This document shows, piece by piece, positions 42,037 through 44,373 of a stretch of DNA of 64,000 nt. Position 1 is the stretch's first letter, and the number at the start of each line of letters is the position of its first letter. Made by a program: the position numbers and the translations under genes. This stretch comes from Pectinatus frisingensis (GTDB taxonomy: Bacteria > Bacillota > Negativicutes > Selenomonadales > Selenomonadaceae), in assembly GCF_015732285.1 (NCBI RefSeq), contig NZ_WIQU01000054.1:62001-126000 (forward strand), in the 5' to 3' direction. The notes under the pieces are model-generated. The model did no database searches. It saw only the letters and a program-made list of their open reading frames with translations, and had not been told where the DNA came from.

Positions 42037-42088
42037 ATATATGCCCATTCCCCCCTTATGAAAGTATAAGAAGAAAATGGGCATATAT
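42037..42088 (-). terminator. Terminator after the lactate/malate dehydrogenase-family gene
   Basis: ATATATGCCCATT and AATGGGCATATAT form a perfect 13-bp stem with a 26-base loop; on the minus strand a T-run follows. It isolates the dehydrogenase transcript from the suf promoter. Confidence 0.82.
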
Positions 42089-42110: not shown

Positions 42111-43058
42111 TTAAATATTGGAGAGTGCGTTTCTTACACTTTCAGCTGATTCCAATAATTGATTTGTTTCTTTGGAAGAAAGCTTAACTTCGAAAGATTT
42201 TACAATACCCTCGGCACAAACCATGCGAGGTATGCTTAAGGCCACACCGCGTATACCATATTCACCTTCAAGAACAGCGGACATTGGCAGGATAGTATGT
42301 TCATCATATAAAATTGATTTTATGAATCGACAGGCAACCATGGCGATACCTGTATTAGTCCAGCCCTTTAAATTTATTATATCGTAAGCGACTTGAACAA
42401 CGGCATCTTCAATGGACTGACGATTTATTTTTTGTGAGAAATTAAAACAATCATCAAGATGCTCAAGCGGCATGCCGGCAATATTGACAGTACTCCATGC
42501 TGTGAAAGCAGAATTGCCATGTTCTCCTAATATATATCCGTGGATATTTTTCGGGTCAACATGGTAATGATCAGCTAAAATGCGGCGAAAACGGAAAGTT
42601 TCAAGCATTGTACCGGTGCCCACAATTTTTTCCCGTGGATAATCAAAATGAGTAGAAATATAATACGTTGCTACATCAAGTGGATTAGTTATTGCAATTA
42701 TCATAGCATCTTTGGTATACTTGACTATCTCGCTCATAATACTGTTCATTATCTTGGTGTTGGTCCTTGCCAATATTAGTCGATCTGGTTTTTCACCCGG
42801 CCTGATACTGGGACCGGCAGTAATAATTATTATACCGGCATCGTGGCAATCTTTATATGTACCGGTATGTACATTTATGTTCGTACTGTATATGCACGAA
42901 GTAGCATGACTGGCATCAAGAGCCTCACCCTTTGCTTTGTCGGCGTTTATGTCTATTAAGACTATTTCAGACGCCAACTGAAAATCGGTTATTTTGCCTA
43001 ATATTGCCGAACCAACATTACTGGCACCGATAATCACAATTTTACCTTTGTTTATCAT
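42111..43058 (-). CDS. L-lactate/malate dehydrogenase-family 2-hydroxyacid dehydrogenase, divergent
   Basis: 315 residues of the LDH/MDH fold: nucleotide-binding loop GASNVGSA, Asp36 for the NAD ribose, NPLDVATYY, and catalytic His180 in GEHGNSAFTAW, which is LDH-like (GEHG...W) rather than MDH-like. Odd points: the substrate-specificity position is Ile85 (Gln in LDH, Arg in MDH); the mobile loop RPGEKPDR is two residues longer than usual; and the relay Asp is Glu153 in LETFRFR. Probably reduces a 2-oxoacid, perhaps pyruvate or oxaloacetate. Single gene under a cobalamin riboswitch, GGGAGGAG before ATG. Confidence 0.85.
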   Translation of the reverse strand: MINKGKIVIIGASNVGSAILGKITDFQLASEIVLIDINADKAKGEALDASHATSCIYSTNINVHTGTYKDCHDAGIIIITAGPSIRPGEKPDRLILARTNTKIMNSIMSEIVKYTKDAMIIAITNPLDVATYYISTHFDYPREKIVGTGTMLETFRFRRILADHYHVDPKNIHGYILGEHGNSAFTAWSTVNIAGMPLEHLDDCFNFSQKINRQSIEDAVVQVAYDIINLKGWTNTGIAMVACRFIKSILYDEHTILPMSAVLEGEYGIRGVALSIPRMVCAEGIVKSFEVKLSSKETNQLLESAESVRNALSNI

Positions 43059-43114
43059 GGAAAATTCTCCTCCCTATCACTCGTAGGTTTGCCGTATGAA
43101 TAAATTTGCGGCAT

Positions 43115-43275
43115 GGTGATGTCAACAGGCAGTTCTTCTGGCTAAGCTTCATCGTTTATTGCTCCTTCTCAAGATTATTATCTCAATGGCATATTGCAAT
43201 TTACTCTGCATGACAGCTGCGGGACAGCTCCGGATTTTCACCGGATTCTCTATTAAGTCACTGACACCTGTTCCT
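43115..43275 (-). promoter_or_regulatory. Cobalamin (B12) riboswitch upstream of the dehydrogenase gene
   Basis: The minus strand reads, in order, GAACAGGTGTCAGTGAC, GAATCCGGTGAAAATCCGG, AGCTGTCCCGCAGCTGTCA (43212-43230) and, 70 nt on, TTAGCCAGAAGAACTGCCTG (43126-43145). These are the conserved blocks of the cobalamin aptamer (GGTGxxAATCC, CCCGCxxCTGT, AGCCAGxxxxCCTGC). It points at the dehydrogenase gene, whose start is about 57 nt downstream. No T-run terminator is visible between them; TGCCG/CGGCA and the ribosome-binding site region may form a translational switch. Known members repress when adenosyl- or methylcobalamin binds. Confidence 0.87.
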
Positions 43276-43290
43276 TGAATTAGTATGAGT

Positions 43291-43319: not shown

Positions 43320-43477
43320 TATAATGCACTACATGCCAATATTGTGGCACATAACACGACAAATGTCAATAATGATGTAAAATTGTGAAAACAGTTAAGG
43401 CATAAAAATAAATAATAATTATTGTTGATAATGTGTTTATAGTGTTGTAATAAGTCATAAATGTAAAGATAAAACTA

Positions 43478-43542: not shown

Positions 43543-44373
43543 ATGGGTAAAATTGAAATAAAAAATCTTACATATAAATATAGACAATTAGATAATGAGA
43601 AAAATGCCTTAGAGAATATTAATCTTACTATAAATAAGGGGGAATTCATTGCCATAGTGGGAGTAAATGGTTCAGGAAAATCTACATTGGCACGTCAGTT
43701 AAATGGACTATTGTTACCGACGGGTGGCAGCTGCATTGTTGATGGGATGGATACCAGAAATGAAGCAACTATTTGGCAGGTACGGCAAAAAGTAGGAATG
43801 GTGTTTCAAAATCCAGATAATCAGATAATTGCGGCAATTGTTGAAGATGATGTAGCTTTTGGGCCGGAAAATTTGGGAATAGTCCCGCAAGAAATAAAAA
43901 AACGTGTGGCAGAAAGTCTACGAGCGGTGGGAATGGAAAAAAAACGCAAATTCGCCCCGCATCTTTTATCGGGTGGACAAAAACAACTGATAGCAATAGC
44001 AGGAGTATTAGCGATGCGTACAGATTATCTGGTACTGGACGAGCCAACGGCAATGCTTGATCCATCGGGAAGAGAAGCTGTCTTAAAAGCGGTGCGGGAA
44101 ATTCATAAAAAGTATGGGATAACAATAATACTTATCACTCATTTCATGAATGAAGCGATAATGGCTGACCGAATAATTGTAATGCATATGGGGAAAATTG
44201 CTGTTGACGGTAGTCCCAGGCAGGTGTTTAGTGATGCTGCAAAAGTGAAAAGATTGGGACTGGAAATGCCATTGGCAGCGCAGATAGCGCATAGGCTGCG
44301 TCTAAAAGGGATGAATATAGCAAATGATATTTATAGTACAGATGAGTTGATAGAAAATTTGAAAGTTAATTAG
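43543..44373 (+). CDS. ECF-transporter energy-coupling ATPase (EcfA/CbiO type), apparently orphan
   Basis: 276 residues: Walker A GVNGSGKSTLARQLNGLLLP, Q-loop VFQNPDNQIIAAIVEDDVAFGPEN (first part quoted is typical EcfA), signature LSGGQKQLIAIAGVLAM, Walker B YLVLDEPTAMLDPSGR. The signature has QLIAI where QRVAI is common. Normally ecfA1 follows rplQ and is followed by ecfA2, ecfT, truA. Here it lies 6.8 kb after rplQ, beyond suf and the dehydrogenase, and a convergent regulator overlaps its 3' end by 8 nt. Partner subunits must be elsewhere. Confidence 0.88.
   Translation: MGKIEIKNLTYKYRQLDNEKNALENINLTINKGEFIAIVGVNGSGKSTLARQLNGLLLPTGGSCIVDGMDTRNEATIWQVRQKVGMVFQNPDNQIIAAIVEDDVAFGPENLGIVPQEIKKRVAESLRAVGMEKKRKFAPHLLSGGQKQLIAIAGVLAMRTDYLVLDEPTAMLDPSGREAVLKAVREIHKKYGITIILITHFMNEAIMADRIIVMHMGKIAVDGSPRQVFSDAAKVKRLGLEMPLAAQIAHRLRLKGMNIANDIYSTDELIENLKVN

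Follow-up and report, generated by a model that had tools for sequence, protein, structure and literature searches.

Why should a cobalamin riboswitch lie in front of a lactate dehydrogenase gene in Pectinatus frisingensis, and what would B12 control there? A comparative survey distinguished four target classes, namely B12 synthesis, B12 uptake, cobalt uptake, and isozymes of B12-dependent enzymes, and a core fermentation enzyme such as lactate dehydrogenase (LDH) falls in none of them (PMC3766115). Among the titles and abstracts of matches in the open-access literature, none described a cobalamin riboswitch on ldh or in Pectinatus. The riboswitch class and control at the ribosome-binding site are known already, whereas ldh as a target, its coupling with mutAB, and the terminator-to-Shine-Dalgarno variant described below appear to be new. 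Our main reading, to which we give a probability of about 0.7, is that an adenosylcobalamin- or corrinoid-responsive OFF riboswitch controls translation of a fermentative L-LDH in Pectinatus. The sequences show the aptamer, which gene it precedes, the layout of the locus, its conservation, and the separate aptamer lineages of Pectinatus and Propionispira; the ligand response, the OFF sign, and the direction of LDH flux are what we infer.

Aptamer and enzyme at the ldh locus

We searched the window (the whole 64-kb stretch of DNA analysed) with cmscan. The cobalamin family RF00174 (Rfam Cobalamin) matches at full length (model 1-189) at 43286-43111 on the minus strand with 100.3 bits and E 6.8e-24, against a gathering score of 31.5 bits, which rules out a chance match. 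A sequence-only reading had placed an aptamer at 43115-43275 and proposed checking the minus strand with the Rfam covariance model; that interval lies inside this significant match. The aptamer is 5' of ldh on the same strand, with a gap of 52 nt to the ATG. The orientation, the single-gene unit, and its own terminator were also read correctly, as the open reading frame (43058-42111) is on the same strand and is followed by a hairpin with a T tail (42086-42039). The divergent ecfA-type gene at 43543 was ruled out as the target, being on the opposite strand. The features of the locus are as follows.

43341..43369, minus: candidate promoter of ldh, TTGACA, 17 nt, TG-CACAAT (consensus scan, 10/12 matches)
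43111..43286, minus: cobalamin riboswitch aptamer (RF00174; cmscan, full length)
43090..43113, minus: variable hairpin TGCCG..CGGCA, between aptamer and switch hairpin (sequence reading; RNAfold model)
43071..43085, minus: switch hairpin CCTA-CGAGTGA-TAGG, probably P13 (recurs after most aptamers, with compensatory stem changes)
43066..43075, minus: Shine-Dalgarno TAGGGAGGAG, 7-8 nt before the ATG (sequence; kept in four Pectinatus leaders)
42111..43058, minus: ldh, predicted NAD-dependent L-lactate dehydrogenase, 315 aa, ATG start (TIGR01771; 70% identity to PDB 7nay)
42039..42086, minus: intrinsic-terminator-like hairpin closing the single-gene unit (20-pair stem, T tail)

The promoter-like element (43369-43341), in which TG precedes the second hexamer (CACAAT), is a consensus match only; TTGACA-17-CACAAT is also kept upstream of a riboswitch-less second ldh copy in P. 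brassicae. Elsewhere in the window, cmscan found a glmS ribozyme (75.6 bits) and a TPP riboswitch (67.2 bits) on the minus strand at 185-337 and 1932-2028.

The ldh product matches Ldh_1_N and Ldh_1_C of Pfam and scores 358.9 bits with the L-LDH model TIGR01771 (curated cut-off 303.55), while malate dehydrogenase models stay below their own cut-offs. Its closest solved relatives, PDB 7nay and 8q3c (Selenomonas-type), are both named L-lactate dehydrogenase; with 7nay, which we take to be from Selenomonas ruminantium, it shares the SIRPGE specificity loop, the GEHGN motif, and 70% overall identity. Outside Pectinatus and Propionispira, the riboswitch is missing from every Selenomonadaceae LDH locus examined. 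Judged by sequence, the product is an NAD L-lactate dehydrogenase and not a malate dehydrogenase, an identity that family models and motifs rule out. The earlier assignment to the LDH/MDH family was right as to family and narrows to L-LDH, its malate part being dropped. The common superfamily and the Propionispira operon with mutAB described below would fit a malate or other 2-hydroxyacid dehydrogenase working in the succinate-propionate route. Given the passed TIGR01771 cut-off, the failed malate models, the shared motif, and the identity to a solved L-LDH, we regard this as highly improbable. The genome moreover holds three LDH/MDH genes, one of which (C60:359703) encodes a separate protein that fits the malate dehydrogenase models best (above one subfamily cut-off, just below that of TIGR01763). 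The third encodes a second LDH (C43:11446-12378, 49% identity to the ldh product), and no cobalamin riboswitch was found upstream of it.

Proposed switching mechanism in the ldh leader

The hairpin that follows the aptamer suggests how the switch would work. Hairpins of the form CCYR-CGAGNGA-URGG follow most cobalamin aptamers in the genomes of both Pectinatus and Propionispira. Their stems carry compensatory changes, their loop is nearly invariant, and they probably correspond to P13 of published models. By eye, L5 showed no obvious complementarity to the conserved CGAGNGA loop. At mutA and in many more copies, the hairpin has one or two intrinsic terminators behind it. Its purine 3' strand shows a tendency to pair with the terminator 5' arm (below the shuffled mean in 17 of 20 cases, at the 10% level in only 4 of 20), consistent with this strand acting as an antiterminator in the sister copies. 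At ldh, the 3' strand of the hairpin (CCTACGAGTGATAGGGAGGAG) is itself the Shine-Dalgarno sequence. The same is true of all four Pectinatus ldh leaders with an intact aptamer, in which the spacing of hairpin, Shine-Dalgarno, and start is constant and no terminator was found. The variable hairpin TGCCG..CGGCA is missing from the Propionispira leader. Minimum-energy folding did not separate B12-free from B12-bound states.

Because the Shine-Dalgarno is the 3' strand of the conserved hairpin, B12 most likely blocks ldh translation. With enough B12, the aptamer would stabilise the downstream hairpin CCUACGAGUGAUAGG; as the Shine-Dalgarno UAGGGAGGAG begins with the 3' strand of this hairpin, translation would be blocked; with scarce B12, UAGGGAGGAG would be free and LDH would be made. 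In translational cobalamin riboswitches of the E. coli btuB type, B12 binding likewise masks the ribosome-binding site. The ldh leader differs from that type in its target and in having as its Shine-Dalgarno the purine strand that is the apparent antiterminator in sister copies. This suggests a simple route from a terminator-type riboswitch to a ribosome-binding-site switch.

Repression by B12, which the earlier reading had posed as a condition, is the likely sign, given the position of the Shine-Dalgarno in the switch hairpin and the repressing riboswitches of related Negativicutes (PMC9600662). When 86 riboswitches were tested in a B. subtilis reporter, 38 were functional and all of these repressed, Veillonella parvula mutA included; 37 of the 38 had a predicted terminator (PMC9600662). 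The ldh element resembles the Negativicutes-type RF00174 riboswitches of V. parvula mutA and Sporomusa ovata btuB2 (PMC9600662) in Rfam family, post-aptamer hairpin, and bacterial class, and mutA is a riboswitch target in Pectinatus as well. It differs from them in its target, in the lack of a terminator, and in the double role of the hairpin 3' strand. For a B12-dependent mutase, an ON switch, by which B12 would raise LDH (and mutase) expression, would be the most straightforward logic, and in Xylanibacter mutAB mRNA and protein rise with B12, though no riboswitch is near mutAB there (PMC11575231). With the Shine-Dalgarno inside the hairpin that the ligand would stabilise, and with repression by 38 of 38 functional riboswitches, V. 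parvula mutA among them (PMC9600662), we hold an ON switch to be improbable.

Conservation and origins of the ldh riboswitch

LDH is 85-91% identical between this genome and P. haikarae, P. cerevisiiphilus, and P. brassicae. In this genome, P. haikarae, a further Pectinatus genome (G084), and P. brassicae copy 1, ldh is preceded at a distance of 50-60 nt by an intact cobalamin riboswitch. The four aptamers are 77-83% identical, score about 80-106 bits in the Rfam model, and show compensatory changes at paired sites. The P. cerevisiiphilus leader holds only a riboswitch remnant (nhmmer 22.7 bits) that has lost the GTCCCGCAGCTG core and keeps 25 of 48 base pairs, compared with 33-37 in the others; its switch hairpin and Shine-Dalgarno are still present despite the decayed aptamer. 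P. brassicae ldh copy 2, which occupies the syntenic position, has no riboswitch. The riboswitch is thus not essential for ldh, being lost in one species and absent from one copy in another. P. brassicae, which has ldh with and without the switch, and P. cerevisiiphilus, with its decayed switch, offer natural controls.

This pattern of decay and absence, together with the multiplication of riboswitches in these genomes (13 in this one), could also mean that a local duplication left the aptamer behind as a passive relic that is not used for ldh. Against this, four diverged copies hold their scores with compensatory changes, the spacing from hairpin to start is fixed, and a second genus evolved an ldh-riboswitch link too; we consider a relic very improbable. 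In P. cerevisiiphilus, a different, intact cobalamin riboswitch (L092 9612-9790) lies just downstream of ldh, where it precedes what looks like a BtuCDF-type ABC transporter set; this set is an insertion between ldh and sufC.

We searched about 115 other Negativicutes LDH loci, many of them from Selenomonadaceae and some representing one gene from two collections. No cobalamin riboswitch was found by nhmmer, although its profile, derived from the aptamers of Pectinatus and Propionispira, could overlook divergent copies; about 30 of the loci were also negative by cmscan. A wide association of ldh with the riboswitch across Negativicutes was thus not found in this sample. When the leader was searched against plasmids, only short matches covering about 20% of the query were returned.

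Propionispira, another genus of Selenomonadaceae, is represented by P. raffinosivorans (G151) and a congener taken as P. arboris (G149). There, a cobalamin riboswitch and two tandem terminators precede ldh-mutA-mutB-meaB and a TonB receptor; ldh is 74-75% identical, and about 37 nt without a terminator separate it from mutA. In an aptamer tree of 181 columns, the Propionispira ldh aptamer joins the cbiK riboswitches of its own genus (97/90) and stands away from the four Pectinatus ldh aptamers, which group weakly (68/0). A tree uniting all ldh aptamers was rejected (p-AU 0.024, in a test run after the tree was seen), which disfavours a single origin, and in the LDH tree Propionispira is not adjacent to Pectinatus. 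The aptamer grouping, this test, and the LDH tree together make two separate origins probable, and B12 control of ldh likely, though not certainly, arose independently in the two genera.

A wider reading, which we put at slightly under even odds, is that Selenomonadaceae evolved a B12-sensing fermentation switch on two or more occasions: riboswitches on LDH and the mutase would couple cofactor supply to end-product choice in Pectinatus and Propionispira, and in Pectinatus the antiterminator strand would have been reused as a Shine-Dalgarno, turning a transcriptional switch into a translational one. If true, B12 would serve anaerobes as a signal that decides between lactate and propionate as the fermentation end product; both Pectinatus and Propionispira are culturable.

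LDH, the mutase, and the B12 regulon

The genome contains 13 RF00174 matches, and their targets include mutA-mutB-meaB (by family models), cbiK, TonB-dependent receptors, TonB, and a PepSY membrane protein. The B12-dependent mutAB carries a cobalamin riboswitch in every Pectinatus checked. The premise that such riboswitches control only synthesis, uptake, or B12-independent isozymes is therefore incomplete for Pectinatus, where mutAB-meaB has its own. CbiD, the only marker tested, is encoded in the genome and implies that B12 is made de novo at least in part, so B12 is perhaps rarely limiting unless cobalt is.

With mutAB riboswitched in Pectinatus and ldh and mutAB-meaB on one switch in Propionispira, LDH and apo-mutase should rise together at low B12. 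The parallel riboswitches on mutAB-meaB, cbiK, TonB-type receptors, and TonB would also open, raising B12 supply and apo-methylmalonyl-CoA mutase, and more apo-mutase may help to catch the scarce cofactor. LDH would provide a B12-independent exit for pyruvate and NADH as lactate, since the propionate route stalls at the mutase, and may in this way dispose of reducing power. The proposal that LDH is made when B12 is scarce thus keeps its basis, an aptamer before LDH in a Negativicute carrying mutAB-meaB, but its logic of a mere alternative is incomplete, as the mutase operon is riboswitched too. A picture in which LDH replaces the mutase route is incomplete for Propionispira too, where both are expected to go up at low B12 from a single riboswitch.

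Loss of the mutase step need not remove the electron sink, because succinate can still be formed; it has been reported as an end product in the cobalt-deficient rumen (PMC7601760). As the mutase is expected to rise with LDH and succinate could serve as an end product, LDH may not be needed. Both points, with the mutase co-regulated and not oppositely regulated, speak against a simple "lactate instead of propionate". The nearest analogy is the cobalamin riboswitch of metE, the B12-independent isozyme of MetH: in both cases B12 would shut off an enzyme that is important when the B12-dependent route fails. Unlike that case, LDH does not catalyse the mutase reaction (family assignment gives the two enzymes different reactions), and mutAB-meaB has a cobalamin riboswitch too.

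Could LDH instead work with the mutase, oxidising lactate to pyruvate for lactate-to-propionate fermentation, with ldh and mutAB-meaB as one B12-linked functional unit? Fermentation of lactate to propionate is known in Negativicutes, and the shared riboswitch and operon of Propionispira and the riboswitches on both units in Pectinatus fit this. NAD-linked LDHs of fermenters, however, normally reduce pyruvate, the closely related 7nay carries the name L-lactate dehydrogenase, and an OFF switch would keep the unit lowest at plentiful B12, when lactate-to-propionate fermentation would run best. We think this arrangement unlikely and prefer the reading in which B12 scarcity releases LDH.

Several other cobalamin riboswitches of this genome have unusual surroundings. 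One, outside the window (G000:C43:127965-128149, minus strand; L010, with L205), has no protein gene behind it. Behind its aptamer, switch hairpin, and terminator comes a conserved, apparently noncoding block of about 100 nt with a second terminator at its end. Orthologues are L190/L208 (P. brassicae), L203/L206 (P. cerevisiiphilus), and L197/L207 (P. haikarae). The block is single-copy in four Pectinatus genomes, occurs at full length nowhere else among 61 family genomes, and has no match in Rfam. In a three-species alignment, two hairpins are conserved, and the first of them shows a compensatory change; the block is possibly a B12-controlled small RNA.

A strong riboswitch of 110 bits with a terminator (G000:C32:45342-45519, L001; L095 2764-3330) precedes a GH25 lysozyme-like gene, downstream of which are genes resembling 6-phosphogluconolactonase and glucose-6-phosphate dehydrogenase. 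Its relatives in other Pectinatus have other proteins behind them, so the original target may have been lost. Two further loci have unusual B12-linked targets: tandem riboswitches (G000:C43:135120-135832, L003/L012) precede a protein without a Pfam match, and a single one (G000:C61:154510-154692, L002) precedes a ShlB/FhaC-type two-partner secretion gene.
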